Source: Bacteroidaceae bacterium
GTDB lineage: Bacteria; Bacteroidota; Bacteroidia; Bacteroidales; Bacteroidaceae
NCBI GenBank assembly: GCA_024401115.1
Contig: JAKSLP010000006.1
Span: forward strand, 1 to 64,000
DNA: 64,000 nucleotides
Reading direction: 5' to 3'
Position numbers and translations under genes: made by a program. Of the stretch, positions 35,553-53,062 are shown piece after piece (position 1 is the first letter of the stretch; each line of letters begins with the position of its first letter). The notes beneath the pieces were generated by a model. That model saw only the letters and a list, made by a program, of their open reading frames with translations. It was not told the origin of the DNA and did not search any database.

Positions 35553-35621
35553 CAAAATTACAAATGAATTGGTAAAAACAATGGGGGAAATTCCTATTCT
35601 TTAGTAGGGAAATCCCTATTT
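35553..35621 (-). promoter_or_regulatory. promoter plus double operator of the Arg/Ser/Gly-rich protein operon
   Basis: On the minus strand: -7 box TAATTTTG (35560-35553), TTG as -33 (35581-35579, 18-bp spacer), then two A/T-centred GGG/CCC motifs directly upstream: GGAATTTCCCCC (proximal, centre about 35592) and ATAGGGATTTCCCTA (distal, centre about 35612). Centres lie about 32 and 52 bp from the -7 box. The same layout appears before the 52091 gene. This looks like a tandem activator site. Confidence 0.6.
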
Positions 35622-35719
35622 TTGCGCTACAGTTGTTAAAACATCTTTTTTTGGAAATGAAATATTCAAAATTGGACGAATTTTTCGTCTTTCCTATTCC
35701 ACATATACAAAATGTTGTT

Positions 35720-35727
35720 TATCTTTG
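35720..35727 (+). promoter_or_regulatory. -7 promoter box of the RecQ-like C-terminal module gene
   Basis: TATCTTTG; start of transcription near 35734, leader about 34 nt to the TTG start at 35768. Shows that this gene has its own promoter and is not the tail of a longer gene. Confidence 0.6.
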
Positions 35728-35767
35728 TCGCCGATAAAATAAACTATACAAACTAAATTTAATCGCA

Positions 35768-36517
35768 TTGGAAGCAAAAGAATCTTTATGCAAAGTTATT
35801 GAAGCTATCCTGGAAATTGGTAACAACTTCAAAACTGATATTATTATAGATTTCCTCAGTGGAAAACAGAATTCTACCATCGAATCAAACGGATTGGACG
35901 AGATGGAGACCTTCGGAATTGGTGAGAACGAGGACGAATCCATTTGGGAGCAGGTCATCTCACAAGCTATCTCTGACGGTTATCTCTCTTCAGACAAGAA
36001 GGAGTCGAATGGCGGAATATCGGTTACATCAGCCGGTAAGAAGTTCTTGAAAAATCCAGTTTCTTTCAAGATTGAGGGAGAAAATGAGGATGACGAGGAT
36101 GGAAATGTGGGTTCCAACATTGATTCAAACATCCAGCAGCTGATGCAGGAAATTGAGAATGATCATGATGTCAAACCGACAAAAACTGCAGCAAAGAAGA
36201 AGTCATCCATCAAGATTGAACTGATTCATGCCATTGACCGCCAAAAGGACTTGGACGATTTTGCGAACTCTCAGGGTAAGGATTTCCTGGAGGTCCTGGA
36301 TGAGTTGGAAAGCATCATCAAGTCAGGCATGAAACTGAACATTGATTACTTTATCAATGAAGTGCTGGATGAGGATCAGGTTGACGAAATCATAGAGGTA
36401 TTGAGCAAACACAACGGCTTACTTGATAAAGCGTTAATGGAATTGGAAGACACCTATAGTGAAGATGAAGTAAGACTGGTTAACATCAAGTATTTGACAC
36501 TAAACGCCAAAAAATAA
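35768..36517 (+). CDS. free-standing RecQ C-terminal module (RQC plus terminal domain, no helicase core)
   Basis: 249 residues. Residues 1-100 read as an RQC winged helix: IIDFLSGKQNSTI, METFGIGENEDESIWEQVI, DGYLSSDK, VTSAGKKFLKNPVSFKI. Residues about 145-249 match the extreme C-terminal domain of Bacteroidota RecQ helicases: KIELIHAIDRQKDLDDFA, ELESIIKSGMKLNIDYF, LMELEDTYSEDEVRLVNIKY. The DEAH helicase core and the HRDC domain are absent; an upstream in-frame stop (35735-35737) and an own promoter show that this is a complete gene. The start is TTG 35768; the next Met is at residue 46. It may bind forked or G-rich DNA without unwinding it, or regulate RecQ. Followed 31 bp later by an HU gene. 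Confidence 0.75.
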   Translation: MEAKESLCKVIEAILEIGNNFKTDIIIDFLSGKQNSTIESNGLDEMETFGIGENEDESIWEQVISQAISDGYLSSDKKESNGGISVTSAGKKFLKNPVSFKIEGENEDDEDGNVGSNIDSNIQQLMQEIENDHDVKPTKTAAKKKSSIKIELIHAIDRQKDLDDFANSQGKDFLEVLDELESIIKSGMKLNIDYFINEVLDEDQVDEIIEVLSKHNGLLDKALMELEDTYSEDEVRLVNIKYLTLNAKK

Positions 36518-36548
36518 ACCTATAACCTTATCAACTAAAAGAGAGAAT

Positions 36549-36839
36549 ATGACAAAGAGTGAACTAGTTAAGCAGATTTCCAAACAGACTGGAATAGAGA
36601 ATGCTGTCGTGCTGACCATTGTTGAAGCTTTTATGGAAGACATCAAGTCAAACATGGCTTCTGGTAATGAAATTTTCTTGCGTGGATTCGGAAGTTTCAT
36701 CTTGAAGACCCGTGCCGAGAATACTGCCCGTAACATATCCAAGAATACGAGCGTGGTTATTCCTCCTCACAACATCCCATTCTTCAAGCCATGCCCAGAA
36801 TTTAAGGAAGCAGTAGTAGATACTCCAATGGAAGACTAA
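36549..36839 (+). CDS. HU/IHF-family DNA-binding protein
   Basis: 96 residues. Standard HU layout: MTKSELVKQISKQTG helix, EIFLRGFGSFILKTRAENTARN (the GFGSF turn near residue 47 and RxARN near 58), DNA-bending arm ISKNTSVVIPPHNIPFFKP and C-terminal helix. Binds and bends DNA in the nucleoid. It lies 31 bp after the RecQ-module gene and shares its transcript, then a strong terminator. Confidence 0.92.
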   Translation: MTKSELVKQISKQTGIENAVVLTIVEAFMEDIKSNMASGNEIFLRGFGSFILKTRAENTARNISKNTSVVIPPHNIPFFKPCPEFKEAVVDTPMED

Positions 36840-36844
36840 AAAAT

Positions 36845-36877
36845 AAAAGAGCACTGATTATCAGTGCTCTTTTATTT
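36845..36877. terminator. bidirectional terminator after the HU gene
   Basis: Perfect 13-bp stem (36845-36857 with 36861-36873), TTA loop, A-run and T-run on both sides. The stop of the convergent patB gene lies in its right arm. Confidence 0.92.
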
Positions 36878-38018
36878 TTAGTAATCTGTTTAATCCATCC
36901 GTCAGAACGCTGCGCGGACAGGCCAGGTTAATTCGAATAAACTTATCACCGGGTTGTCCGTAATGAATACCGGCATTCAGCCATAAGCCTTTTTCCATCA
37001 GCTTATCCTCAATCTCCTGAGAAGGTATACCCTGTGCAGAACAGTCCACCCAGGCCAGATAGGTTCCTTCAAGTTTGATAACAGGAAACTCCGGCATGTT
37101 TTGAGCCATGAAATCACACAGGCACTGATAATTCTGATGCAGATAGACCAGAAGTTGCTCCAACCAGTCCTCAGACTCATTGTATGCCGCCTGTAATGCC
37201 ACAACGCCCAATGGGTTCACGTCACACACCTCATTTATATTAATAGCCTTATCTATCTTTTTACGAATCAGTTCATCTGCAGCTGTGATATTACTGATTT
37301 GCAGTCCGGCAATGTTGAAGTTCTTGGTTGGTGAAGTGCAGACAGCACAATTCATCAGGAACTCCTCCCCCAACGAGGCATAAGGGGTGTATCGGTATCC
37401 CGGCATCACCAGTTCGCAATGAATCTCATCAGCTATCACAAACACATGATGCTTCAGGCATATCTCCCCCATCCGGCGCAGTTCCTCTGCTGTCCACACC
37501 CTTCCAGCCGGATTATGTGGGTTGCACAACAGGAACACTTTACAGAGCGGATCAGATGCTTTGCGCTCAAAATCTTCAAAGTCGATAGTATAAGTCTGAT
37601 TGGCATACACCAGGTCATTGCTGATCATCTGGCAACCGTTGTTCCGTATGCTGCTGAAGAAGCAGTTGTATACCGGACACTGAACCAGCACCTTGTCACC
37701 TGGGACAGTCATCGCCTTAATGATGGCACTGATGGCAGGAACCACGCCCGAGGTGTAAATCATCCACTCGCGCTTCATGGTCCATCCGTGACGACGGCTA
37801 AACCAATTGATTACGGCTTCATAATAGGAATCCGGCACGGCCGTATATCCGAATATGCCGTGCTGAACCCGTCTGATGAGTGCTTGCTGGATGGGCTCTG
37901 CCACCTTGAAATCCATGTCAGCCACCCACATAGGAATAACGCCTTCAGGGGCCAAATCCCATTTATAGCTGCATGTCCCTCTACGGTCTACTATCTCGTC
38001 AAAATTATAGGTGTTCAT
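36861..38018 (-). CDS. patB: PatB/MalY-type cystathionine beta-lyase-like aminotransferase
   Basis: 385 residues, PLP fold type I. MWVADMDFKVAEPI near residue 30 is a PatB/MalY hallmark; CNPHNPAGRVW near 164, ADEIHCELVM near 194, PLP lysine in SPTKNFNIAGL (near 231), FIRINLACPRS near the end. Known relatives cleave cystathionine or cysteine conjugates; some also regulate. Overlaps the upstream DUF3737 gene by 4 bp. Confidence 0.88.
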   Translation of the reverse strand: MNTYNFDEIVDRRGTCSYKWDLAPEGVIPMWVADMDFKVAEPIQQALIRRVQHGIFGYTAVPDSYYEAVINWFSRRHGWTMKREWMIYTSGVVPAISAIIKAMTVPGDKVLVQCPVYNCFFSSIRNNGCQMISNDLVYANQTYTIDFEDFERKASDPLCKVFLLCNPHNPAGRVWTAEELRRMGEICLKHHVFVIADEIHCELVMPGYRYTPYASLGEEFLMNCAVCTSPTKNFNIAGLQISNITAADELIRKKIDKAININEVCDVNPLGVVALQAAYNESEDWLEQLLVYLHQNYQCLCDFMAQNMPEFPVIKLEGTYLAWVDCSAQGIPSQEIEDKLMEKGLWLNAGIHYGQPGDKFIRINLACPRSVLTDGLNRLLKIKEH

Positions 38019-38857
38019 CGGGTCAAAATCTCGCAGTCGGCTGGTGATTTTACATTCTCATCCAGGATAATCTCTCCATAGGAATCAGCAACAATCTGTC
38101 CGGAAGTTGGATTCTTAACACTAACCACATGTCCGTTGATGGTTGCCTGTACAGTAGAATACTCAAACAGCAGGTTTGCATCCTCACCAAAGGTGCAGTC
38201 TTCCAGAATCAGTCCATCCACATAGCAAAGCAACTGTTCACCGGTCAGATGGCAGCGAACCAGTTTCATGTTCTTGGCATACCAGCCTAAATACTCACCG
38301 TTAATCTCCGAGTCATAGACGGTAATGTTCTCAGCCTCCCAAAAAGCATCTTTGGAATTAATCACAGCATTATGAATCTCCACGTTCTTGGCATACTGGA
38401 AACCGTAGTTGCCGTCTTGACGGTAATCGGTCAACTTGATATTCTCAGAGTGCATGAACACATAATCGCAATTGCCAATATAGACATTCTTCATTTCGAT
38501 ATTGGAACAATCCCAAAGGAACTGCTCGCCATTAGGAAAATCCGTATTCTCCACATAGATGCCATCCATTCGACGGAACATTTTTGGAGCATCCACCTTA
38601 CAGTTGCGCATATCGCAGTTGCGTGAATACCACAGGCTGGAACGGGCACTCTCAGTAAACACACAGTTGTTCACCTTAAATCCGTTGGTTTCCCAGAATA
38701 CATATTTACCTTCAAAGGTACAGTTTTCCGCCTCTATGTTCGAGGTCTCTTTGATACTGGACTCACCTACATGAATAGTCACATTCTCCAAACGAAGGTT
38801 GTGCATAGCGTACAACGGGCGCTCGCCACCAAACTCTTTATCTTTAATAATCTCCAT
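38015..38857 (-). CDS. DUF3737 family protein, right-handed beta-helix
   Basis: 280 residues. Opening IIKDKEFGGERPLYA and the repeating short strands (CTFEGKYVFWET, CVFTESARSSLWYS, CKVDAPKMFRRMDG) are typical of DUF3737, a cytosolic beta-helix family of unknown role. No signal peptide. Its last codons overlap the patB start (ATGA), so the two are coupled and may act on the same pathway. Confidence 0.85.
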   Translation of the reverse strand: MEIIKDKEFGGERPLYAMHNLRLENVTIHVGESSIKETSNIEAENCTFEGKYVFWETNGFKVNNCVFTESARSSLWYSRNCDMRNCKVDAPKMFRRMDGIYVENTDFPNGEQFLWDCSNIEMKNVYIGNCDYVFMHSENIKLTDYRQDGNYGFQYAKNVEIHNAVINSKDAFWEAENITVYDSEINGEYLGWYAKNMKLVRCHLTGEQLLCYVDGLILEDCTFGEDANLLFEYSTVQATINGHVVSVKNPTSGQIVADSYGEIILDENVKSPADCEILTR

Positions 38858-39075
38858 AATCGTACTTTATCAGATGCAAATTTAGAAAAAATTACACGAA
38901 TCAAAGTCCCTTTTTCCTCGTATTTTTTTAAAACGAAAATTGATTGCTTGATAACGAATTGCACCTGTCAGGAGCATTCAGATTCGCATGGAGCCTGTCG
39001 GGCACACCGAAAAAAGCCGGAAAAATGCTTGTGATTTCAAAAAATTATTGTACCTTTGCATTCGCAATTCAGCAA
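38858..39075. other. intergenic stretch before the tRNA cluster
   Basis: 218 bp, AT-rich at first. A TACCTTTG at 39050-39057, just before the tRNA-Cys gene, is a good -7 box for the cluster. Nothing else is evident. Confidence 0.5.
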
Positions 39076-39147
39076 GGTGCCTTGGATGAGTGGCTTAGTC
39101 TACGGTCTGCAAAACCGTCCACGGCGGTTCGAATCCGCCAGGCACCT
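39076..39147 (+). tRNA. tRNA-Cys(GCA)
   Basis: 72 nt. Acceptor GGTGCCT with AGGCACC, discriminator T; anticodon loop CTGCAAA gives GCA; T-arm GCGGTTCGAATCCGC. First of three tRNA genes in a row. Confidence 0.93.
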
Positions 39148-39164
39148 CTGAATGATGAGGGGAA

Positions 39165-39251
39165 GGAAGTTTGGGTGAGTGGCTGAAACCACCAGTTTGC
39201 TAAACTGACGTACGGGTTACCGTACCGGGGGTTCGAATCCCCCAGCTTCCG
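39165..39251 (+). tRNA. tRNA-Ser(GCT)
   Basis: 87 nt with the long variable arm of class II tRNAs (GTACGG-gtta-CCGTAC). Acceptor GGAAGTT with AGCTTCC, discriminator G; anticodon loop TTGCTAA gives GCT. Confidence 0.93.
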
Positions 39252-39259
39252 CTCTGAAT

Positions 39260-39331
39260 GGCGCTTTCATCTAGCGGTTAGGATACCGGCCTCTCACGCC
39301 GGGTACACGGGTTCGAGTCCCGTAGGCGCTA
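39260..39331 (+). tRNA. tRNA-Glu(CTC)
   Basis: 72 nt. Acceptor GGCGCTT with AGGCGCT (two G-U pairs), discriminator A; anticodon stem CCGGC/GCCGG with loop CTCTCAC gives CTC, reading GAG. Confidence 0.88.
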
Positions 39332-39370
39332 CAAAAAAAGAGCATACATTTCTGTATGCTCTTTTTTTGT
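39331..39370 (+). terminator. terminator of the tRNA cluster
   Basis: Perfect 18-bp stem (39331-39348 with 39353-39370), TTTC loop, including A- and T-runs, directly after tRNA-Glu. Confidence 0.92.
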
Positions 39371-39381
39371 ATATATGACAT

Positions 39382-39420
39382 AAATAAAGAAGCACGTCCG
39401 TTTGACGTGCTTCTTTATTT
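39382..39420 (-). terminator. terminator of aspS
   Basis: Perfect 17-bp stem (39382-39398 with 39404-39420), 5-nt loop, directly past the aspS stop codon. Confidence 0.88.
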
Positions 39421-39422
39421 TA

Positions 39423-41213
39423 TTATTCCTTGATGTCGATAGCCAGACTCAGCTCATCCAGCTGCTTCTGATCCAGATAACCTGGAGCATCCAGCATAAC
39501 GTCACGGCCGCTGTTATTCTTAGGGAATGCGATACAGTCACGGATACTGTCCAGACCGGCAAACAGACTGACGAAACGGTCCAAGCCGTATGCCAGACCA
39601 CCGTGAGGAGGTGCACCGAACTTGAATGCATTCATCAGGAAGCCGAACTTCAACTGTGCCTGCTCTGGGGTGAAGCCCAAGATCTCGAAGATCTTCTGCT
39701 GCAACTTGGCATCGTGGATACGGATAGAACCACCACCTACTTCAACACCATTGATAACCATATCGTATGCATTAGCACGTACGCTGGCTGGATCGGTATC
39801 CAACAAGGGAATATCCTCAGGCTTTGGTGAGGTAAATGGGTGATGCATAGCCATCAGGCGCTGCTCCTCATCACTCCACTCGTACATTGGGAAGTCGATA
39901 ACCCACAGGCAAGAGAACTTGTTCTTGTCACGCAGACCCATACGGGCACCCATCTCCAGACGCAACTCGCACAACTGCTTACGTACCTTCATGGCATCTT
40001 CACCGCTCAGAATCAAAATCAGGTCGCCCGGCTTAGCACCGAACTTCTCCTTAACCTGCTGCAGTACCTCCTGAGAATAGAACTTATCTACCGAGCTCTT
40101 TACCGAGCCGTCTTCTGCTACACGGGCGTAAACCAAACCCTTGGCACCAATCTTAGGACGCTTCATAAACTCAGACAACTGCTCAATCTGCTTGCGGGTA
40201 TAGTCGGCCTGGCCCTCGCAACAGATACCACCGATATATGCGGCACCGTCAAATACGGCGAAACCCTCTGGGAATATGCTCTCAACAATCTCACGAGAGG
40301 CATTGTCTGGCTGATTGTTCTTCAGCTCTACGAATGCCATACCGAAACGGGTATCAGGCTTATCGCTACCATAGTTCTTCATGGCATCTGCCCATGTCAT
40401 GCGAGGCAGAGTTGGAATATCAATGTTCAGGATGGTCTTGAACAAATGACGGCTCATGCCCTCGAACATCTGCAGAATATCCTCCTGCTCAACGAAACTC
40501 ATCTCGCAGTCAATCTGTGTAAACTCTGGCTGACGGTCAGCACGCAGGTCCTCATCGCGGAAACACTTGCAAATCTGGAAGTAACGGTCGATACCAGCAA
40601 CCATACACAACTGCTTCAGGGTCTGTGGGCTCTGTGGCAGAGCATAGAACTGACCTGGATTCATACGGGAAGGAACCACGAAATCGCGTGCTCCCTCTGG
40701 AGTAGAGTTAACCAGGACTGGAGTCTCGATTTCCAGGAAGCCCTTGCTATCCAAATAGCGGCGAACCTCAAAAGCGAACTTATGACGCAACTCCAGGTTC
40801 TTGCGGACTGGATTACGGCGCAAATCCAGATAACGGTATTTCATACGGATATCATCACCGCCATCACTCTCATCCTCGATAGTGAAAGGAGGAACATCCG
40901 ATGTGTTCAAGATATTCAAACTGCTAACCAGAATCTCAATCTCACCGGTAGGGATCTTGTTATTCTTAGCAGAACGCTCATTTACGGTACCAGTAACCTG
41001 AATCACATACTCGCGACCCAGATGATTGCTCTGCTCACACAACTCTGCATTGGTCTCAGCATTAAAGACCAACTGAGTGATACCATAGCGGTCACGCAGG
41101 TCTACGAAGGTCATACCACCCATCTTACGGGCACGCTGTACCCAACCTGCCAAGGTAACCTGTTCGCCGGCATTTGCCAGACGCAACTCACCACAAGTTT
41201 TTGTTCTAAACAT
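39423..41213 (-). CDS. aspS: aspartyl-tRNA synthetase
   Basis: 596 residues, the normal bacterial length. N-terminal OB-fold ([24 protein letters not shown]), class II motif 2 region ([25 protein letters not shown] as parts [11 protein letters not shown] and PEFTQID), bacterial GAD insertion, and motif 3 GLAYGLDRF near the end. Charges tRNA-Asp. Single-gene unit with a -7 box at 41252-41245 and its own terminator. Confidence 0.96.
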
Positions 41214-41244
41214 TCTATTTTTATTCTAAATTATTTTCGGAGTG

Positions 41245-41252
41245 CAAAGTTA
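41245..41252 (-). promoter_or_regulatory. -7 promoter box of aspS
   Basis: Minus-strand TAACTTTG, leader about 25 nt to ATG 41213. A second identical box on the same strand lies at 41327-41320. Confidence 0.55.
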
Positions 41253-41339
41253 GTGCAAACCGAGTGGAGTACAAAATAAATTTATTTATTTTTAATCCCG
41301 AGGTGCAGCCTAACTTATCCAAAGTTAGTGTTAACCGCC

Positions 41340-42476
41340 TCACACTTCCGCATCCTTCATCTGCTGACGGAAATAACCAATCTCATTCACCACATCCTCT
41401 GCCGAATCCGTAATGGACAGAATCAGGTTCTTATAGGTCCCAGCCTCCAGCATCTGTTGCATAAGCGGATAAACCGGAACTTCCTCTTCCCAGAAATGCT
41501 TGCCGAGGAAAATCATCGGGCTGGAATAACCATAGGTCAGATAATGATTCTGCACGGCCTCCTGGAATATCTCCTGTAAAGTTCCGGCACTTCCAGGAGA
41601 ATAGATTATGCCACCCATGGCAATGCTCAGAATGCCATCCTCACGAATACTGTTGTCAAAATATTTAGCTATGTGCGTAGCAAAGGGAGTGGAAGGTTCA
41701 TGCCCATAGAGCCAGGTAGGAATACCTAAACTCTCATACTGATGCTGTGGGTATTTCTCCATCACTTCAAAAGCCTTTTGCAACCATTTCTCGTCGCTAA
41801 TGCAGGGTGCTTGAGCTACAATCGACAGAGCATCTTCCACCTCTTCCAGCGTTCTACCAGCCATCCATGATCCCAGATGAGTGGCCTCCATAGCACCGGG
41901 TCCACCACCTGAAACCATAAGTGAACCAAGTTCGGTTAATTTCTTACTTAGCAACACTATTTGACGAAACATATTACCTGTTCGTTTAAGTCCGTGTCCG
42001 CCCATTACACCTACCACTTGCCAAGGCGAATATTTTGCCAGCAGCGTATGCAATGCTCCACTGATGGAATTATCATGTACTGACCGTGCCAAAGACTCTT
42101 TTATATCGGTGGTAGACTTACCATACTCCAGATAACGCTGATAAACGACACTGTCGAAGCAGGTCTTAGACGGGTCAGGAGTATTCATATCAAAACCATC
42201 ATAAAGACTGACGGCATTATAGAGTTGGGAGCGGAACGCATTATAGGGCACATCCATCGATTCAAAAATCAGGCAACCCTCTGTGGTGCGCAGATAAAAA
42301 TCTTTCGGAAAGGTGCACCCCAGGAACAGGCAATCCTGGAAATGACAATGTTCAATATCACAACAGCACTCATTAAAATCGATGTCCTGAAAGGCACAGT
42401 GAGTGATTATTCTGCGAGTGGCAATCAAATGATTGACATCTTTTACGGTCTCAATTTCTCGGTAATTGGCAAGCAT
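41340..42476 (-). CDS. LOG-family nucleotide-binding protein with pentapeptide-like N-terminus
   Basis: 378 residues. C-terminal Rossmann domain of the LOG/TIGR00730 type: GVMGGHGLKRTG near residue 156, SGGGPGAMEATHLG near 188 and PGSAGTLQEIFQEA near 296. The last is the PGGxGTxxE site with Ser for the second Gly; Glu is kept. LOG enzymes hydrolyse nucleoside monophosphates to base and ribose 5-phosphate. The first 75 residues hold Cys/Phe-rich short repeats (CAFQDIDFNECCCDIEHC, then HFQDCLFLGCTF) like pentapeptide repeats, an unusual addition. Substrate unknown. Confidence 0.78.
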   Translation of the reverse strand: MLANYREIETVKDVNHLIATRRIITHCAFQDIDFNECCCDIEHCHFQDCLFLGCTFPKDFYLRTTEGCLIFESMDVPYNAFRSQLYNAVSLYDGFDMNTPDPSKTCFDSVVYQRYLEYGKSTTDIKESLARSVHDNSISGALHTLLAKYSPWQVVGVMGGHGLKRTGNMFRQIVLLSKKLTELGSLMVSGGGPGAMEATHLGSWMAGRTLEEVEDALSIVAQAPCISDEKWLQKAFEVMEKYPQHQYESLGIPTWLYGHEPSTPFATHIAKYFDNSIREDGILSIAMGGIIYSPGSAGTLQEIFQEAVQNHYLTYGYSSPMIFLGKHFWEEEVPVYPLMQQMLEAGTYKNLILSITDSAEDVVNEIGYFRQQMKDAEV

Positions 42477-42593
42477 AGCATATTATTTATGCTACAAATA
42501 TGGCCATAACAATGATTTTTTCCAAACTGCACCTCATTTATTTATATCTTTTTTTGAATCTTTGCGACCCGAAAATTAATAAAGTTATTCAAA

Positions 42594-45332
42594 ATGGAAT
42601 TAGCAAGTAAATACAATCCCGCTGATGTTGAAGCCAAATGGTATCAGTATTGGTTAGATCATAAATTATTCAGTTCTAAACCTGATGGCCGCGAGCCTTA
42701 CACCATCGTGATTCCTCCACCAAACGTAACCGGTGTGCTTCACATGGGCCACATGCTGAATAATACCATTCAGGATATTCTGGTTCGCCGTGCCCGCATG
42801 GAGGGCAAGAACGCATGTTGGGTACCTGGTACCGACCATGCTTCCATTGCAACCGAGGCTAAGGTTATCAAGCGTTTGGCTGAGCAGGGCATTCAGAAGA
42901 GCGACCTGACCCGCGACGAGTTCCTGAAGCATGCATGGGCATGGACCGATGAACACGGTGGCATCATCCTGAAGCAGTTGCGCAAGTTGGGTGCAAGCTG
43001 CGACTGGGACCGCACCGCTTTCACCATGGACGAGAAGCGCAGCGAGAGTGTCATCAAGGTATTCGTTGACCTGTACAACAAGGGTATGATCTATCGCGGT
43101 GTGCGTATGGTCAACTGGGACCCAGAGCGCCAGACTGCATTAAGTGATGAGGAGGTAATCTATCACGACGAGCACAGCAAGCTGTACTACATGAAGTACT
43201 ATGTAGATGAGCCTGTTGGCAGCACCGACGGTGAGGAAGCTGATGCTATTGTTATCTGCAACAACGATAAGGAGTTCGACCCAACCGTAAAGGTTCAGGT
43301 AGTACACCGCGATACTGACGGCCGCCGTTATGCGGTTGTTGCTACTACCCGTCCTGAGACCATCATGGGTGATGTGGCTGTTTGTATCAACCCTAACGAC
43401 CCAAAGAACACCTGGCTGAAGGGCAAGAAGGTCATCGTTCCTATGGTAGGCCGCGTGGTTCCTATCATTCAGGACGAGTATGTTGAGATTGAGTTCGGTA
43501 CCGGTTGTTTGAAGGTTACCCCTGCTCACGACGTGAACGACTATATGTTGGGTGAGAAGTACAACCTGGAGGCTATCGACGTATTCAACCCAGACGGTAC
43601 CCTGAGTCAGGCTGCCGGTCTGTATATCGGCATGGACCGATTCGACTGCCGCAAGCAGATTGCACTGGACATGAACCAGGCTGGTCTGCTGGAGAAGCAG
43701 GAGGATTACAACAATAAGGTGGGTTACAGCGAGCGTACCAATGTGCCAATCGAGCCAAGATTGAGTATGCAGTGGTTCCTGAAGATGCAGCACTTTGCTG
43801 ACATTGCTCTGCCACCTGTAATGAACGATGAACTGAAGTTCTATCCTGCAAAATATAAGAATACTTACCGCAACTGGCTGGAGAACATCAAGGACTGGTG
43901 TATCAGCCGTCAGCTGTGGTGGGGCCATCGTATTCCTGCTTACTACTTGCCTACCGGCGGTTATGTTGTAGCAGAGACTATCGAGAAGGCAGTTGAGCTG
44001 GCTCGCGAGAAGAGCGGTAACGCAGAACTGACCGCAGCCGACCTGCGTCAGGACGAGGATGCCCTGGATACATGGTTCTCTTCATGGTTGTGGCCTATCT
44101 CGCTGTTCGACGGTATCAACAACCCTGGCAACGAAGAGATTAATTACTACTACCCTACAGCCGACCTGGTAACCGGTCCGGATATCATCTTCTTCTGGGT
44201 AGCCCGTATGATTATGGCGGGTTACGAGTATCAGGGCAACATGCCATTCAAGAATGTATACTTCACCGGTATCGTTCGTGATAAGCTGGGCCGCAAGATG
44301 AGTAAGTCATTGGGCAATAGCCCTGACCCTCTTGATCTGATCGACCGCTTCGGTGCCGACGGTGTACGTATGGGTATGATGCTGAGTGCACCTGCAGGTA
44401 ACGATATTCTGTTTGACGACAGTCTGTGCGAGCAGGGTCGCAACTTCAACAATAAGATTTGGAATGCTTTCCGTCTGGTTAAGGGATGGACCGTATCTGC
44501 GGATATCGAGCAGCCTGCCGAGAGCAAGATTGCTACCGCATGGTTCGATGCTCAGTTGAAGAGCACCGCAGCCGAACTGGCAGACCTGTTTACCAAGTAT
44601 CGTCTGAGCGAGGCCTTGATGGCTGTATATAAGTTGTTCTGGGACGAGTTCTCAAGCTGGTACCTGGAGATGATTAAGCCTGCATACGGCCAGCCTATTG
44701 ATAAGGTGACCTACGATGCAACCTTAGGTTTCTTCGACGGCCTGCTGAAGTTGCTGCACCCATTCATGCCATTCATCACTGAGGAGTTATGGCAGGCACT
44801 GGAGGAGCGCAAGGACGGCGAGAGCCTGATGGTTCAGACCATGAGCTTCACCGAGCCTACCGAGGCAGACAAGCAGCTGGTAGCTGATATCGAGAAGGTT
44901 AAGGAAGTGGTTGTAGGCATCCGTGCCATCCGCCAGCAGAAGAACATTTCTCCAAAGGATGAGCTGACACTGGAGGTAGTGGAGAACAACCCTGCCGAGG
45001 CTTACAACGCTATGATTCAGAAGATGGCTAACATCAGCCAGGTAAATACAGTAGCAGCAAAGAGCGAGGGTACTGCTGCCTTCATGGTAGGTACCACCGA
45101 ATACGCTGTGCCTCTGGGCAACCTGATTGATGCCGAGGCTGAGATTGCCAAGGCTGAAGCTGAGATTAAGCGTCTGGAAGGCTTCCTGACCGGTGTCATG
45201 AAGAAGTTGAGCAACGAGCGCTTCGTTGCCAATGCTCCTGCACAGGTCGTAGAACTGGAAAAGAAAAAGCAGGCTGATGCCGAGAGTAAGATTGCATCGC
45301 TCAAGGAAAGCATCGCTGCATTGAAGAAATAA
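42594..45332 (+). CDS. valS: valyl-tRNA synthetase
   Basis: 912 residues. Class I signatures: [15 protein letters not shown] near residue 38 (HIGH variant HMGH) and [12 protein letters not shown] near 567. Editing domain with [10 protein letters not shown] near 250; C-terminal coiled-coil arm ([17 protein letters not shown]) contacts tRNA. Charges tRNA-Val and edits Thr. An intrinsic terminator lies 50 bp downstream, inside the apparent aguA start. Confidence 0.96.
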
Positions 45333-45340
45333 GTTAATCT

Positions 45341-46498
45341 ATGGGATTAATAGCAAACATCATCCATCAGGAGGACGAAGGAAAAACTCTGCGGCTTAAC
45401 GCCACAGAGTTTTTTGATACGCAAAAGAAGTCCAAAATCGTGTACCTGCCTTCCGAATGGGCGTTGCAGAGTGGCGTTCAGCTTACCTGGCCTCACGAGG
45501 ACACCGATTGGGCTTACATGCTGGACGAGGTGAAGGACTGCTACCGTCATTTGGCGGAAGAGATTGCAGCCCGCGAGACACTGCTCATCGTCACACCTTC
45601 AGTAGAAGACACCAAGGCAGAACTGGCAACCTGGTTCCAGGCTGACAAACTCCCATTAGGTAAAACAGCGGAGGAACTGATGCAGAACATCCGTTTCTTT
45701 GAGTGTCCAACCAACGACACATGGGCACGTGATCATGGTTTTATCACGCTTAAGACCGAGGAGGAGGCACAATTGGTTGATTTCCGCTTCAATGGCTGGG
45801 GACAGAAATTTGCAGCCAACTATGACAATCAGATTTGCCGTAAACTGATGAATTCAAGTCTGTTGAATGGACGTTACCTGAACAGCCTGGATTTTGTGTT
45901 GGAAGGCGGTAGCATCGAGAGTGACGGTTGCGGTACCCTGCTGACCACTACAGAGTGTCTTACCGCACCCAACCGTAATGAGCCTATGGATAAGGAGGAG
46001 ATTGACGGTTACCTGACTAAGCTATTCAACCTAAAGCAGATTCTGTGGCTGGATTACGGATCTTTGGCTGGCGATGATACCGACAGCCATGTCGATACGC
46101 TGGCGCGTCTGTGCCCTGACGACACCATCACCTATGTACAGTGTCTAGACAATGAGGATGAGCATTACGGGCAGTTGCACCTGATGGAGGAACAGTTAAA
46201 GACCTTCCGCACTCTCGAGGGTAAGCCTTACCGCCTGCTGCCTTTGCCAATGGCCAGTGCGGTTTACGATGAGGACGGTTTGCGTCTACCTGCCACTTAC
46301 GCAAATTTCCTGATCATGAATCAGGCCGTTTTATATCCTACTTACAATCAACCCGAAAACGATGCAAAGGCTAAGGATGTCCTGCAACAGGCATTCCCTT
46401 CACGTGAGATTGTAGGTGTGGATTGCCGGGCTTTGATTAAGCAGCACGGTTCCTTGCATTGTGTCACCATGCAGTTCCCTGTTGGAGTTCTGAAATAA
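45341..46498 (+). CDS. aguA: agmatine deiminase
   Basis: 385 residues from ATG 45341, or 352 from GTG 45440. Agmatine deiminase core: YLPSEWALQSGVQLTWPH, TNDTWARDHGF, FVLEGGSIESDG, DDTDSHVDTLARL and the catalytic Cys in HGSLHCVTMQFP (near 373). Converts agmatine to N-carbamoylputrescine, which the next gene product cleaves. The family usually begins at about YLPxEW, so the first 33 residues are extra; they coincide with a strong terminator hairpin at 45382-45415. GTG 45440 (reading as M-Y-L-P-S-E-W) is therefore a serious alternative start. No promoter is seen between valS and aguA. Confidence 0.9.
   Translation: MGLIANIIHQEDEGKTLRLNATEFFDTQKKSKIVYLPSEWALQSGVQLTWPHEDTDWAYMLDEVKDCYRHLAEEIAARETLLIVTPSVEDTKAELATWFQADKLPLGKTAEELMQNIRFFECPTNDTWARDHGFITLKTEEEAQLVDFRFNGWGQKFAANYDNQICRKLMNSSLLNGRYLNSLDFVLEGGSIESDGCGTLLTTTECLTAPNRNEPMDKEEIDGYLTKLFNLKQILWLDYGSLAGDDTDSHVDTLARLCPDDTITYVQCLDNEDEHYGQLHLMEEQLKTFRTLEGKPYRLLPLPMASAVYDEDGLRLPATYANFLIMNQAVLYPTYNQPENDAKAKDVLQQAFPSREIVGVDCRALIKQHGSLHCVTMQFPVGVLK
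45382..45415 (+). terminator. intrinsic terminator between valS and aguA, overlapping aguA 5' codons
   Basis: AAAAACTCTG (45382-45391) pairs with CAGAGTTTTT (45405-45414), then a C-A mismatch, then GGC/GCC, loop TTAAC; six Ts at 45410-45415. A textbook terminator for valS, yet it lies 41 bp inside the frame opened by ATG 45341. Confidence 0.85.
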
Positions 46499-46516
46499 CA
46501 AAAACAACCCATAACT

Positions 46517-47401
46517 ATGAGAAAGATTAAAGTCGGTTTAGTGCAACAGTCATGTACGCCAAATCTGGAGTACAACCTGTCCAAGCTGTATGAGAACATC
46601 AAGGTGCTGGCTCAGAACGGAGCACAGCTGGTGGTGTTGCAGGAATTACACAACTCGCTTTATTTCTGTCAGGTAGAAAGTACGGACAACTTTGATTTGG
46701 CTGAGCCAATCCCTGGTCCTTCTACCGGTTTTTACAGCACCATTGCCCGCGAGTTTGGCATTGTGCTGGTCACCTCACTCTTCGAGAAGCGTGCGGCAGG
46801 TCTCTATCACAACACTGCTGTAGTGTTTGAGAAGGACGGTTCCATTGCCGGCAAGTACCGCAAGATGCACATTCCCGATGACCCTGCCTATTACGAGAAA
46901 TTCTACTTCACCCCTGGAGATCTAGGTTTTGAGCCTATCCAAACCTCGGTAGGCAAGTTGGGTGTTCAGGTATGCTGGGACCAGTGGTATCCGGAAGGAG
47001 CACGCCTCATGGCACTCAAGGGTGCCGAACTGCTCATCTACCCTACAGCCATCGGTTATGAGAGCAGCGACACCGTCGAGGAACAGACCCGCCAGCGTGA
47101 GGCATGGATTACCGTACAGCGCGGTCATGCTGTAGCCAACGGCCTGCCGGTTATCGCCGTAAACCGTGTAGGTCTGGAACCCGATCCAAGCGGTCAGACC
47201 AATGGCATTTCTTTCTGGGGAAGCAGCTTTGTTGCCGGCCCTCAGGGCGAGATCATTGCCCAGGCTCCTATTAATAAGGAAATGAACATGCTGGTCGAGA
47301 TTGACATGGAGCGCAGTGAGAATGTCCGCCGCTGGTGGCCGTTCCTTCGTGACCGTAGAATAGAAAAATTCGGTGATTTGACAAAAAGATTCATAGATTA
47401 A
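46517..47401 (+). CDS. aguB: N-carbamoylputrescine amidase
   Basis: 294 residues, nitrilase superfamily. Catalytic triad visible: Glu in LQELHN (near 44), Lys in YRKMHIPDDP (near 116), Cys in VQVCWDQWYPE (near 153). Hydrolyses N-carbamoylputrescine to putrescine, CO2 and ammonia. Lies 18 bp after aguA on the same transcript; arginine decarboxylase, which would supply agmatine, is not in the window. Confidence 0.94.
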   Translation: MRKIKVGLVQQSCTPNLEYNLSKLYENIKVLAQNGAQLVVLQELHNSLYFCQVESTDNFDLAEPIPGPSTGFYSTIAREFGIVLVTSLFEKRAAGLYHNTAVVFEKDGSIAGKYRKMHIPDDPAYYEKFYFTPGDLGFEPIQTSVGKLGVQVCWDQWYPEGARLMALKGAELLIYPTAIGYESSDTVEEQTRQREAWITVQRGHAVANGLPVIAVNRVGLEPDPSGQTNGISFWGSSFVAGPQGEIIAQAPINKEMNMLVEIDMERSENVRRWWPFLRDRRIEKFGDLTKRFID

Positions 47402-47424
47402 CAGGGTATTTTAGAATTTTGTAT

Positions 47425-47432
47425 TATCTTTG
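47425..47432 (+). promoter_or_regulatory. -7 promoter box of dapF-dapL
   Basis: TATCTTTG; leader of about 45 nt to ATG 47482. Confidence 0.55.
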
Positions 47433-47481
47433 CATTGTATAAGAGAAAAAATGATAGATTTATTCTATTTTTTATTGCAAA

Positions 47482-48330
47482 ATGGCAAAGAACATACATT
47501 TTACTAAAATGCATGGTGCAGGCAATGATTATATATATGTCTACACCCCTGATTATCCCATTGAGAACCCTGAAGCTGCTTCGGTTGCGTGGAGCAGATT
47601 TCACTTCAGTGTAGGTTCCGACGGATTGATTCTGATTGGCAAGTCAGATATTGCCGATTTCTCCATGCGTATTTTCAACAACGACGGTTCCGAGGCCATG
47701 ATGTGTGGCAACGGCGTCCGCTGTGTAGGAAAATTCGTATATGATCATAAACTCACTGATAAGGAAGAGATTACCCTCGAGACCCTTTCCGGCATCAAGG
47801 TCATCCGCCTGGTAGTAAAGGACGGGAAGGCCACCGGAGCAACAGTCGATATGGGCGAGCCTATTCTGAAGAACACTCAGCAGTTGGCCACCCCTGACGG
47901 AGGTATGATTGCCGGACAGATTACGAACGGTAACGATACATTCACCGGAACCTACGTATGTATGGGTAATCCTCACTTTGTCATCTTTGTGGACGATGTG
48001 ATGAGTATACCGCTCACCCAGATTGGTCCCCAGTTGGAGTTTAACCCCATCTTCCCTGAACGTTGCAACATTGAGTTTGCCCAGCTTCGTCCCGACGGAA
48101 GTATCCGCATGAGAGTGTGGGAACGCGGATCTGGCATCACCATGGCTTGTGGAACAGGAGCTTGCGCCACCGCAGTGGCAGCCATCCTGAACCAGAAGAC
48201 CGGCCGTAACGTCAGCATCGAGATGGACGGTGGAACTTTACAGATTGAATGGCGTGAAGCCGACAACCGTATCTATATGACCGGCCCTGCGGCTACCGCA
48301 TTTGAGGGAGTGATAGAATTACCAGAATAA
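47482..48330 (+). CDS. dapF: diaminopimelate epimerase
   Basis: 282 residues. FTKMHGAGNDYIYV at the start, first catalytic Cys in MMCGNGVRCVG (near 75), second in TMACGTGACATA (near 223). Interconverts LL- and meso-diaminopimelate for lysine and peptidoglycan. Followed 21 bp later by dapL, so the two steps from tetrahydrodipicolinate to meso-DAP are encoded together. Confidence 0.95.
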   Translation: MAKNIHFTKMHGAGNDYIYVYTPDYPIENPEAASVAWSRFHFSVGSDGLILIGKSDIADFSMRIFNNDGSEAMMCGNGVRCVGKFVYDHKLTDKEEITLETLSGIKVIRLVVKDGKATGATVDMGEPILKNTQQLATPDGGMIAGQITNGNDTFTGTYVCMGNPHFVIFVDDVMSIPLTQIGPQLEFNPIFPERCNIEFAQLRPDGSIRMRVWERGSGITMACGTGACATAVAAILNQKTGRNVSIEMDGGTLQIEWREADNRIYMTGPAATAFEGVIELPE

Positions 48331-48351
48331 ACAAAGATAAAGTATAAGAGT

Positions 48352-49584
48352 ATGGCATTAGTGAATGAGAATTTTCTGAAATTGCAGAAAAATTACCTGT
48401 TTGTCGATATTGCCCGTAAAGTAAATGCATTTAAGGCCACACACCCTAAGGCAAATGTAATCCGCATGGGTATTGGCGACGTAACCCAGCCTTTAGCACC
48501 AGCCTGCATCGAGGCTATGCACAAGGCCGTTGAGGAATTCAGCAGCAAGGAGACCTTCCACGGCTACGGTCCTGAGCAAGGTTACGATTTTTTGCAGGAA
48601 GAGATTATTAAGAACGATTTTGCCCCACGCGGCATTAAGCTCGACACCTCTGAGATTTTCATCAGCGACGGTGCCAAGAGCGATACCGGTAACATTGGCG
48701 ATATCCTGGCTTTGGATAACATTTTCGGGGTTACCGACCCTATTTACCCGGTATATATCGACTCGAATGTCATGGCCGGACGTACAGGTGTCATCGACGA
48801 AAAGGGCTATTGGAGCAATGTTCATTACATGCCATGCAACGCGGAGAATAATTTTATTCCCGAAATTCCTGACAGACATTTAGATTTTGTGTATCTTTGC
48901 TACCCAAACAACCCTACCGGTACAGTCATTACCAAGAGCGAGTTGAAAAAGTGGGTGGATTACGCACTGGCAAACGACTGCATCATCCTGTATGACGCAG
49001 CATACGAGGCATTTATACAGGACCCTACCCTGCCTCATTCTATTTATGAGATCAAGGGAGCCAAGAAATGCGCCATCGAGTTCCACAGCTACTCCAAGAC
49101 TGCAGGCTTTACCGGTGTGCGTTGCGGCTACACCGTCATCCCTAAGGAAGTGATGGCAGTGACCGAGAACGGTGATAAGGTATCGCTCAACCAGTTATGG
49201 TTGCGCCGTCAGTGCACCAAGTTCAATGGCGCTTCTTACATCACCCAGCGTGGTGCAGCAGCCATCTATACCCCAGAGGGTAAGGAGCAGGTAAAGAAGA
49301 CCATCGACTACTATATGGACAATGCCCGCCTGCTCAGTGGCGCGTTGAAGGAACTGGGAATCCAGACCTTTGGTGGCGAGAATGCCCCATACATCTGGTT
49401 CAAGACTCCGCACGGAGAATCCAGCTGGTCTTTCTTCGAGAGCATGCTGTATGATGCCCATCTGGTCAGCACACCGGGTGTAGGCTTCGGTCCTTCGGGA
49501 GAAGGATATATCCGACTCACCGCCTTCGGCCAGCGCGAGGATTGCGAGGAGGCTGTAAGCCGACTGAAGAATTGGATTAAATAA
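48352..49584 (+). CDS. dapL: LL-diaminopimelate aminotransferase
   Basis: 410 residues, PLP fold type [23 protein letters not shown] near residue 34 (as [12 protein letters not shown]), [13 protein letters not shown] near 99, [10 protein letters not shown] near 184, and PLP lysine in [16 protein letters not shown] (Lys near 249). Converts tetrahydrodipicolinate directly to LL-DAP with glutamate, bypassing dapC/D/E. Shows that this organism uses the aminotransferase lysine route. Confidence 0.95.
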
Positions 49585-49626
49585 GGCCTAGACAAATAAG
49601 GCCAACAAGATAACGATAACGATAAC
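49579..49626 (+). repeat. short direct repeats between dapL and glnN
   Basis: AAATAAGGCC occurs at 49579-49588 (containing the dapL stop) and 49594-49603; GATAAC is repeated three times at 49609-49626. They lie about 70-115 bp before glnN, where regulator sites would be expected. No consensus -7 box is seen. Confidence 0.5.
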
Positions 49627-49696
49627 AATAAATAGATATATAAACCAACAAATAGAATAGGACCTGTACAGGGTGTATGGGCCGTGCGTAATAATT

Positions 49697-51886
49697 ATGT
49701 CATCAAAATTAAGATTTAAGGTAGTAAGCGAGGCTTTTGCCAAGAAGCCTGTCGAGGTGCCAGCCCCTGCAGAGCGGCCTTCAGAATTCTTTGGAAAGTA
49801 CGTGTTCAACAAGCAGAAGATGTTCAAGTACCTGCCAAAGAAGGTCTATGACAAGATGTGTGACGTTATGGATAACGGAGCACCACTGGACCGCGAAATT
49901 GCTGATCAGGTGGCAGCAGGCATGAAGAAATGGGCCATGGAGTTGGGCGTAACCCACTGTACCCACTGGTTCCAGCCACTGACCGACACCACCGCCGAGA
50001 AGCACGATGCATTCGTCGACCACGACGGAAAGGGCGGAATGATCGAGGAGTTCGAGGGAAAGTCACTCGTCCAGCAGGAACCTGACGCATCCTCATTCCC
50101 CAGCGGCGGTATCCGCAGTACCTTCGAGGCACGCGGCTATTCGGCATGGGATCCTACCTCACCGGTATTTGTCATCGGTGATACATTGATGATTCCTACC
50201 GTCTTCATCTCGTATACAGGTGAGGCGCTGGATTATAAGACACCACTGCTGAAGGCATTGAGCGCAGTCAACAAGGCGGCGACCGATGTATGCAAGTATT
50301 TCTATACAGATGTAAAGAAGGTCATCACCAACCTGGGTTGGGAACAGGAGTACTTCCTGGTTGACGAGGGTCTTTACAGCGCACGCCCTGACTTGCTGCT
50401 TACCGGCCGTACCCTGATGGGACACAGCTCGGCAAAGGACCAGCAGATGGATGACCACTACTTTGGTTCCATTCCAGAGCGTGTGGCTGAATTCATGAAG
50501 GACCTGGAGATTCAGGCATTGGAACTGGGTATTCCATGCAAGACCCGCCATAACGAGGTAGCGCCCAACCAGTTTGAGTTGGCCCCTATCTTTGAGGAAG
50601 CGAATCTGGCTATCGACCATAACATGCTGATTATGGGATTGATGCGTAAGATTGCACGTAAGCACGGTTTCCGTTGCCTGTTGCACGAGAAGCCATTTGC
50701 CGGCATCAACGGTTCGGGTAAGCACAACAACTGGTCACTGAGCACCGATACCGGTATATTGTTACACAACCCAGGTAAGACTCCAGAGGAGAACCTGCGT
50801 TTTGTCACCTTCATCGTAGAGACGCTGATGGGTGTATATAAGCATAACGGTCTGTTGAAGGCTTCTATCATGAGTGCCACCAATGCTCACCGTCTGGGTG
50901 CCCACGAGGCTCCTCCTGCTATCGTATCGTCATTCCTGGGCAAGCAGCTCACCGACCTGCTGAACCACCTGGAGGAGACTGAGGAGGATGCCCTGATCAC
51001 ACTGGACGGCAAGCATGGCATGAAGATGGATATCCCATCCATCCCAGAGATCATGATTGACAACACCGACCGCAACCGTACCTCGCCATTTGCCTTCACC
51101 GGCAACCGTTTCGAGTTCCGTGCGGTAGGTTCGGAAGCCAACTGTGCATCGGCCATGATTGCCCTGAATGCTGCAGTAGCCGAGGCATTGGTAAGTTTCA
51201 AGGAGCGTGTGGATGCGCTCATCGCACAGGGTGTGGCTCAGAATTCAGCAATCCTGAAGGTGCTGCGCGACGATATCAAGACCTGTAAGCCAATCCGTTT
51301 CGACGGCAACGGCTATTCAGATGAATGGGTAGTAGAAGCAGGCAAGCGTGGCCTGGATGTAGAGAAGAGCTGCCCTATCATCTTCGACCGCTACCTGGAC
51401 AAGCAGAGCGTGGAAATGTTCGAGAAGCTGAACATCATGACCGAGAAGGAGTTGGAGGCACGTAATGAGATTAAATGGGAGACCTACACCAAGAAAGTGC
51501 AGATTGAAGCACGAATCTTCGGTGACCTGGCCATCAATCATATCATCCCAATCGCCACCCGTTACCAGAGTGCACTGATTGACAATGTGCACAAGGTAAA
51601 GGACATCTTCGGTGAGGAGGCTATTGGACTGAGCGAGGAGAACATGAAGTTGATTCGTGAAATCTCCATGCGCACCAAGACCATCACTGCCAAGGTACAG
51701 GAAATGATCGAGGCACGCAAGTGTGCCAACCGTATTACCTGCGAGCGTACCAAGGCCATTGCCTACCACGATACCGTAGAGCCTTTCCTGAACGAGATTC
51801 GTGAGGAAATCGATAAGTTGGAGATGATCATCGATGATGAGATTTGGCCACTTCCTAAGTATCGTGAGATCTTATTTATCAGATAA
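49697..51886 (+). CDS. glnN: type III glutamine synthetase
   Basis: 729 residues, the usual size of GSIII. MSSKLRFKVVSEAF start, GS catalytic signatures NEVAPNQFELAPIFE near 280 and GINGSGKHNNWS near 335 (ATP/metal region). Family-specific regions include THWFQPLTD and the long C-terminal helical domain with MRTKTITAKVQEMIEARK (as parts). Makes glutamine from glutamate, ammonia and ATP. ATG 49697 is preferred to 49673, which would add eight residues not seen in the family. Confidence 0.94.
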   Translation: MSSKLRFKVVSEAFAKKPVEVPAPAERPSEFFGKYVFNKQKMFKYLPKKVYDKMCDVMDNGAPLDREIADQVAAGMKKWAMELGVTHCTHWFQPLTDTTAEKHDAFVDHDGKGGMIEEFEGKSLVQQEPDASSFPSGGIRSTFEARGYSAWDPTSPVFVIGDTLMIPTVFISYTGEALDYKTPLLKALSAVNKAATDVCKYFYTDVKKVITNLGWEQEYFLVDEGLYSARPDLLLTGRTLMGHSSAKDQQMDDHYFGSIPERVAEFMKDLEIQALELGIPCKTRHNEVAPNQFELAPIFEEANLAIDHNMLIMGLMRKIARKHGFRCLLHEKPFAGINGSGKHNNWSLSTDTGILLHNPGKTPEENLRFVTFIVETLMGVYKHNGLLKASIMSATNAHRLGAHEAPPAIVSSFLGKQLTDLLNHLEETEEDALITLDGKHGMKMDIPSIPEIMIDNTDRNRTSPFAFTGNRFEFRAVGSEANCASAMIALNAAVAEALVSFKERVDALIAQGVAQNSAILKVLRDDIKTCKPIRFDGNGYSDEWVVEAGKRGLDVEKSCPIIFDRYLDKQSVEMFEKLNIMTEKELEARNEIKWETYTKKVQIEARIFGDLAINHIIPIATRYQSALIDNVHKVKDIFGEEAIGLSEENMKLIREISMRTKTITAKVQEMIEARKCANRITCERTKAIAYHDTVEPFLNEIREEIDKLEMIIDDEIWPLPKYREILFIR

Positions 51887-51943
51887 TATATAACTGATTA
51901 TATATAAGTTATCTATTTCTTTTGTTGGTTGTTTTAAGTTTGA

Positions 51944-51986
51944 GGATGGATGCCGTCGTGATGATGTCATCCATTCGTTTTTTATA
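51944..51986 (+). terminator. terminator of glnN
   Basis: Nine-bp stem (51944-51952 with 51968-51976, one G-U), 15-nt loop, then GTTTTTT. Confidence 0.65.
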
Positions 51987-52054
51987 AATAGGGAAATTCC
52001 CCTATTCTTTTAGGGATTTCCTCTTGCATGGAGGAAAATACTCTCCTATCTTTG
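51987..52054 (+). promoter_or_regulatory. promoter plus double operator of the 52091 gene
   Basis: Two A/T-centred motifs, AATAGGGAAATTCCCCTATT (51987-52006, near-palindrome) and TTAGGGATTTCCTC (52010-52023), stand directly upstream of CTTGC (-33 region, 52022-52026) and the -7 box TATCTTTG (52047-52054). Centres lie about 50 and 31 bp from the -7 box, the same as at 35553-35621. Confidence 0.6.
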
Positions 52055-52090: not shown

Positions 52091-53062
52091 ATGAAGAAGA
52101 TAATACTTAGCCTGGTAGCCATTCTGATGGTAACGGTAAATGCTAATGCGCTTAGCAAGTCTCGTTCTCGTGATGAAGCTCGATTCCTGACCGACAAGAT
52201 GGCCTATGAGCTGGACCTGACCGATGAGCAGTTGCAGGATATCTATGAGATCAACTATGACTATTTCCGCAGTCTGGGTCCTGTGACCGGCAATTACGAT
52301 ATGGAATATGACTTGCGTTACCGCAATTTGGGTTATGTGCTGTACGACTGGCAGTGGAACGAGTTCCTGTTGCGCGACTACTTCCTGCGTCCTGTATATA
52401 TCTATCACGGCGGTTGGGCATTCGGAGTATACAACTACTACGTACGCACTCACTGGTGCTTCCACAACCACCACTGGCACAACTATCACGGCGGTCACCA
52501 TATGCACCACAACTATTACCTGAGCCGTCGCGACATGCATCACCGCGCAGTGATCAACCGCGGTACACGTGCCAATATCCACGAGCGTCGTCCTCAGATG
52601 CTACGTCCTAACGTAGGTCATAACAACGGCATCAGCAACCGCCGCAACAATGGTATTAGCCATAACAACGGCAACGGCAACGGTAATTATCGTCGCAATG
52701 ACAATCATAATAACGGTAATGGCAACGGGAACGGACAGTACAGCCGTCCAGAAAACCGTGGCAATAATACGCCAAGCCACAACAACAATGGTGTACGCCA
52801 GGAAAGCCGTGTGAACCGTAGCAATGGACGTGTAATCAACGGTCAGTCACAGATTAAAAGTAATAATAATGTGACACGCGCCCCACGCCAGAGCAGCCGA
52901 AGCAATCAGGTTACCCGCAGTACATCTGCTCCATCACGCAGCGTAACACGAAGCTCTGCAGCTCCAAGTCGCAGCAACGGTAGCGTAAGCAGAGGAGGCA
53001 TGAGCAGAAGCGGAGGCCACAGTAATGGTGGCGGCAGAAGCGGAGGCCGTGGACATAATTAA
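52091..53062 (+). CDS. exported protein with His/Tyr-rich middle and Asn/Arg/Ser/Gly-rich tail
   Basis: 323 residues. Signal peptide (IILSLVAILMVTVNANA, cut near 20). Residues 28-60 (DEARFLTDKMAYELDLTDEQLQDIY, given as LTDKMAYELDLTDEQ) recall the LTxxQ helix of Spy/CpxP-like proteins. Next is a Tyr/Trp/His-rich part (YVLYDWQWNEF, RPVYIYHGGW, many His at 120-155, perhaps metal-binding), then Asn/Gly and Arg/Ser repeats ending in GGRSGGRGHN. No enzyme motif. Tail composition (VTRS, PSRS, GGRSGG) resembles the 34065-35522 protein, and both genes share an operator layout. Confidence 0.75.
   Translation: MKKIILSLVAILMVTVNANALSKSRSRDEARFLTDKMAYELDLTDEQLQDIYEINYDYFRSLGPVTGNYDMEYDLRYRNLGYVLYDWQWNEFLLRDYFLRPVYIYHGGWAFGVYNYYVRTHWCFHNHHWHNYHGGHHMHHNYYLSRRDMHHRAVINRGTRANIHERRPQMLRPNVGHNNGISNRRNNGISHNNGNGNGNYRRNDNHNNGNGNGNGQYSRPENRGNNTPSHNNNGVRQESRVNRSNGRVINGQSQIKSNNNVTRAPRQSSRSNQVTRSTSAPSRSVTRSSAAPSRSNGSVSRGGMSRSGGHSNGGGRSGGRGHN

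Follow-up and report, generated by a model that had tools for sequence, protein, structure and literature searches.

A pair of 14-base-pair (bp) palindromes, 22 bp apart and 58 bp before a TAnnTTTG promoter box, stands before related exported-protein genes in many genera of the family Bacteroidaceae. It was met twice in a 64,000-nucleotide stretch of a Bacteroidaceae bacterium ('the window': GenBank assembly GCA_024401115.1, contig JAKSLP010000006.1, positions 1 to 64,000), before the genes here called P0001 and P0003. The pair is probably, if by no means certainly, an operator for paired dimers of one activator, likely of the NarL/FixJ type, that controls a family-wide envelope regulon. In the window, its parts are as follows.

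35605..35618, minus strand: distal unit 1 of the P0001 promoter, TAGGGATTTCCCTA
35583..35596, minus strand: proximal unit 2 of the P0001 promoter, TAGGAATTTCCCCC, 22 bp from unit 1
35553..35560, minus strand: -7 box of the P0001 promoter, TAATTTTG, 58 bp from the start of unit 1
51989..52002, plus strand: distal unit 1 of the P0003 promoter, TAGGGAAATTCCCC
52011..52024, plus strand: proximal unit 2 of the P0003 promoter, TAGGGATTTCCTCT, 22 bp from unit 1
52047..52054, plus strand: -7 box of the P0003 promoter, TATCTTTG, 58 bp from the start of unit 1

Both sites lie where the first-pass annotation of this DNA had placed them, and its observation of two matching paired sites is confirmed: at each, the step from unit to unit measures 22 bp, and TAnnTTTG begins 58 bp after the first TAGGG. 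It had put the unit centres about 31-32 and 50-52 bp from the box; measured to the T of TAnnTTTG, they lie at 29.5 and 51.5 bp. Single units are nothing unusual: with one mismatch permitted, the window holds 20, against a mean of 15.01 expected, and at least 20 turn up in 13 of 100 shuffles. The window contains two copies of the exact pair, and none of 100 dinucleotide shuffles contains any; the signal is therefore in the pairing.

The single-unit pattern was searched through the whole source genome, with the reversed pattern as a control, and gave 12 strand matches at nine places versus 1 for the control. On reading, these matches yielded eight promoters, each with two units in one register. 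A profile built from the eight (R1), which they match by construction, was run over the 2.85-Mb genome and picks out nine promoters with E values of 9.1e-9 or lower; the ninth (C66:3400) was added by R1 and was not among the eight building sites. The next match, at E 4.6e-4, is one of the same places on the opposite strand. A genome scan for the paired motif at its set distance from TAnnTTTG had been proposed in the first-pass annotation. The targets of the nine promoters are these.

Window: the P0001-P0002 operon, and P0003
C1:86283: a P0003 paralogue
C1:3959: an exported protein of 172 amino acids (aa)
C13 and C32: two near-identical genes, truncated at contig ends
C34: a 177-aa lipoprotein
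C66: a 141-aa CpxP-like protein
C15:35225: about 250 bp without a gene, then a DUF6249-like gene, an extracytoplasmic function (ECF) sigma factor gene and a third gene

Among relatives, the exact pair occurs in 8 of 101 genomes, 40 of which lie outside the family (reversed control, 0). With R1, at E 1e-5, 112 of the 201 family genomes searched give a match. An order-wide sample of 295 genomes gave 4 matches at E 1e-6, all from the same family. Of the R1 matches in the family, roughly 150 were listed, and 91 of these were read besides the nine of the source genome. Going by the first residues of each protein, as read by eye, recurring targets in these 91 are relatives of P0001, followed by a barrel gene, and relatives of P0003, which account for at least 15; further recurring targets are small lipoproteins, DUF4251 proteins, PorT-like barrels, MG2-domain proteins and an M48 protein. 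Targets match Pfam models for M48 (E 9.2e-18), OMP_b-brl_2 (E 1.5e-20), DUF4251 (E 2e-20) and MG2 (E 6e-8). The M48 target in Bacteroides fragilis has NEMVH in place of HExxH and may for that reason be inactive.

Loci were also chosen by protein. An alignment of 20 P0001 relatives was scanned against the named genomes, and the 221 relatives found were reduced to 77 distinct loci; the rows of the alignment, except the window's own, stem from pair-bearing loci, and the scan itself used protein only. Within 450 bp upstream, the pair is found at a score of at least 14 in 56 of the 77 loci, versus 0 of 1410 random windows from the same loci (highest score 13.96). Among the 21 loci without it is L206, whose contig has only 58 bp upstream, so that the promoter is not visible. 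The distance from TAGGG to TAnnTTTG in the 56 loci is 58 bp in 52, 57 bp in 2 and 59 bp in 2. A larger set of 104 non-redundant sites, many of them found by R1 and hence biased towards its own spacing, gives 58 bp for 90, 59 bp for 10, 57 bp for 3 and 50 bp for 1; in assembling it, 70 of 174 candidates were dropped as overlapping or alike, a -7 box within a 20-bp range was required, and the window sites were excluded. Both units and the -7 box are conserved in 58 diverse sites, while the sequence around and between the units varies; unit 1 is a 14-bp dyad, and the right half of unit 2 is weaker.

These regularities bear on a different reading, in which the pair would be bound by a repressor or be a mobile repeat, near promoters by chance. 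Near-copies do precede related genes in some genomes (G135, with 8 matches), and two copies in the source genome precede near-identical genes. The targets are otherwise unrelated, however, the surrounding sequence varies as just described, the register to the -7 box is fixed, and both units lie upstream of the spacer between -33 and -7, in which a third unit (score of at least 4) is found at only 8 of the 104 sites, versus 0.4 expected. An explanation of this kind is very improbable.

From the 58 sites a second profile (R2) was built and searched against 40 of the 77 genomes: all 21 without a site seen at the P0001-type promoter, and 19 of the 56 with one, 7 of these 19 having contributed a site to the model. 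At E 1e-4 it gave 0 matches in all 21 site-less genomes and 1 to 4 in each of the 19 site-bearing ones. The 40 genomes share ancestry, so that a small number of losses may account for the absences.

A conserved envelope regulon, predicted by sequence comparison, is well supported, because nine promoters in one genome share their geometry with promoters before related genes in many relatives. The envelope regulon suggested in the first-pass annotation is thus supported by related exported-protein genes across relatives, and its single activator with two sites about two turns apart gains support from the same comparison, in the nine promoters and the matching geometry of the relatives. In Flavobacterium, TAnnTTTG is placed at -12 to -5 (PMC9723704). 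With that numbering, the dimers would have their centres near -41.5 and -63.5 and share one face of the helix, and the nearer dimer would touch the -33 region, a placing that suits an activator in contact with RNA polymerase. The pair is the predicted operator of a single activator, bound there as two dimers; this activator, likely a response regulator of the NarL/FixJ type, would switch the regulon on. Activation is inferred from the position of the sites and, more weakly, envelope stress as the regulated signal from the targets. BvgA, a NarL/FixJ regulator of Bordetella, has the primary site TAAGAAATTTCCTA, with dimers bound head to head every 22 bp on one face and the nearest dimer abutting -35 (PMC7250471).

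The choice of regulator family was approached by comparing LytTR, GerE and cNMP-binding proteins of the source genome with those of three other site-bearing genomes (B. fragilis Q1F2, Mediterranea massiliensis and B. clarus) and two site-less ones (Mediterranea An20 and Bacteroides ET71). A LytTR response regulator, one of the two types named in the first-pass annotation, might bind the units as direct repeats with a 22-bp step, their palindromes being incidental. LytTR regulators bind a pair of repeats separated by about two turns; before the promoter, TAGGGA is repeated directly with a 22-bp step, and the source genome has six LytTR genes (A to F). Nevertheless unit 1 is a dyad, and none of the nine sites of the source genome is near any of the six genes. 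LytTR A has relatives at 58-62% identity in all five genomes compared, the two site-less ones included; no relative of C or D was found in B. clarus, which has sites; B lacks an orthologue of its own; E and F gave no match. A search of the fetched loci for LytTR and kinase genes, by pattern and BLAST, found a single LytTR pair; it lies in B. gallinarum, about 7 kb from a target. Binding by a LytTR protein is accordingly improbable, and the LytTR half of the earlier suggestion is not supported: no compared LytTR regulator tracks the presence and absence of sites.

The palindromes might instead be bound, in a class II position, by a dimeric activator of some other kind, such as a CRP/FNR protein or a member of a family outside the comparison (OmpR, AraC, XRE, MarR, TetR and others). 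In size, TAGGG-N4-CCCTA corresponds to a CRP/FNR-type palindrome, and a member of that family would be well placed with its centres near -41.5 and -63.5. Only two cNMP-binding proteins were found in the source genome, however, both with relatives in site-less genomes: one has relatives in all five genomes, and the other in four of the five (not seen in B. fragilis), both site-less genomes included, in a comparison that stands without the hits L373, L379, L385 and L388 and without several B. fragilis hits. Taken together with the families outside the comparison, this possibility is unlikely but not remote.

As to the response-regulator type, the other half of the earlier suggestion, a NarL/FixJ protein fits the unit and the 22-bp step, but no gene was found. 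Every genome in the comparison has proteins with a GerE domain. In all, 56 GerE hits were obtained, 30 of them with a locus; 2 of the remaining 26 were also read. The L254 type occurs in four genomes, two of these site-less, and L258 has no close relative (at most 31%). A kinase gene is divergent from one B. fragilis target. A PadR/exporter neighbourhood adjoins one target gene in three genomes of the same genus, and none of the other targets read.

Several results weigh against a NarL/FixJ operator of a family-wide regulon, and against parts of its evidence. No LytTR, GerE or cNMP-binding protein compared is found in all four site-bearing genomes and in neither site-less one. Two GerE families occur in all five genomes compared, with similar helix-turn-helix stretches. 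Both site-less genomes lack the L257 type, which is present in the source genome, B. fragilis and M. massiliensis but missing from B. clarus. A GerE family that adjoins a DUF4251 gene was followed over 46 genomes, with presence taken as at least 44% identity; it is in 13 of 19 site-bearing, 2 of 21 site-less and 0 of 6 genomes of the source genus, and was rejected as the general regulator. The exact pair also occurs in one of the 40 genomes from beyond the family, where no promoter follows it. Upstream regions read backwards reach the score in 5 of the 77 loci, as palindromes partly would. Matches to the CpxP model of NCBIfam (E 0.0027) and to DUF4890 (E 0.0023) are both below the cut-off.

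The window genes under the two promoters are the following.

34065..35522, minus strand: P0001, an exported protein of 485 aa with an arginine-, serine- and glycine-rich tail; core target of the paired site in relatives
32523..34025, minus strand: P0002, an outer-membrane barrel, PorV/FadL-like by a match below the cut-off; second gene of the P0001 operon
52091..53062, plus strand: P0003, an exported protein of 323 aa with a helical N-terminal domain and a tail rich in arginine, serine, glycine and asparagine; its relatives are recurrent targets

P0001 and P0003 each have, by eye, a signal-peptide-like N-terminal stretch, and both end in arginine-, serine- and glycine-rich tails, in line with the first-pass annotation. 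The FadL-like porin that it saw in one operon is a PorV/FadL-like barrel, but the match of P0002 to the NCBIfam model PorV_fam (31.4 bits, E 1.4e-7) is below the cut-off of 90 bits. Relatives of P0002 come after P0001-type genes in many of the loci read. In P0003 and its relatives, L43, Q47, L84 and Q88 are invariant (46 sequences). LTxxQ repeats are a feature of Spy and CpxP, of which these positions are reminiscent; a fold search with P0003 gave no match and lends that likeness no support.

An envelope-stress role is suggested because the targets include M48, DUF4251 and CpxP-like proteins, small lipoproteins and barrels. A fuller reading makes the pair an envelope stress response operator of Bacteroidaceae: a BvgA-like phospho-regulator would bind as paired dimers with a fixed 22-bp step; it would induce periplasmic chaperone-like proteins, M48 proteins, lipoproteins, barrels and perhaps a small RNA; and some lineages would have lost the whole system in one piece. 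Taken jointly, these statements make a possible but doubtful account.

The small RNA concerns the C15-type promoter, which in the source genome and in two genomes of the same genus (G002 and G003) is followed by no long reading frame, a strong hairpin and a T-rich tail. The stretches are these.

L061:5226-5460: source genome, C15
L163:3478-3735: C15-type stretch
L164:3750-4010: C15-type stretch

A short regulated RNA from this promoter is possible. On the other side, a terminator scan flagged the hairpins on the opposite strand only; the G003 hairpin may be the end of a converging gene, and the C15 promoter of the source genome may drive the DUF6249-ECF sigma operon through a long leader.

Some further arrangements were seen around the sites. 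In G135, with its 8 R1 matches, L127 and L134 hold near-copies of the paired promoter before large surface proteins, and it looks as though promoter and gene were duplicated together. The same-genus genome G004 has two paired sites 300 bp apart (L161:34-2226), one before a small lipoprotein gene and the other about 320 bp before a 500-aa fragment of a beta-propeller-like sensor with 'GTLWIG' repeats. In B. fragilis Q1F2 (L287:1-3073), the M48 target and a sensor-kinase-like gene point away from each other, and the paired site lies between the two. The NarL-like regulator gene of the GerE family followed over 46 genomes directly adjoins a DUF4251 gene in B. fragilis and B. clarus (L347:7430-8801 and L348:5608-6948). 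The window also encodes, at 41340-42476 on the minus strand, a 378-aa protein with no Pfam match at E 1e-5.

The envelope regulon is apparently undescribed. No operator of this kind is described for Bacteroides, Phocaeicola or Prevotella-like bacteria in the literature searched, most subscription journals lying outside it; one or other of four unit strings stands in 38 papers, and the 25 of these that were listed all concern eukaryotes or eukaryotic viruses, to judge by their titles. The three groups are prominent in the gut, and the pair names predicted co-regulated envelope genes in many of their species, B. fragilis included. It also predicts a regulator recoverable with one DNA fragment, and site-bearing and site-less relatives provide a natural loss experiment. 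Envelope-damage sensing in gut Bacteroidaceae would, through the pair, become a directly testable question.

Several known systems resemble the arrangement in part. LytTR promoters likewise have two sites about two turns apart before the promoter; here, in contrast, the units are palindromes and no LytTR gene tracks the sites. The Cpx and Spy stress regulons share periplasmic CpxP-like and M48 proteins with the targets here, although the CpxP likeness is below the cut-off and the B. fragilis M48 protein has NEMVH. The RcsB/RcsAB box of enterobacteria is also a 14-bp palindrome with similar letters and envelope targets, but a paired 22-bp step is not known to belong to that box. Bordetella BvgA differs in belonging to another phylum, and the sites here have a TAnnTTTG promoter type, GGG/CCC arms and no regulator gene named. 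The likeness to BvgA (PMC7250471) extends to a 14-bp inverted heptad with very similar letters (TAAGAAATTTCCTA vs TAGGGAAATCCCTA) and to a 22-bp step between dimers on one face, the nearest abutting the promoter, with binding here predicted.

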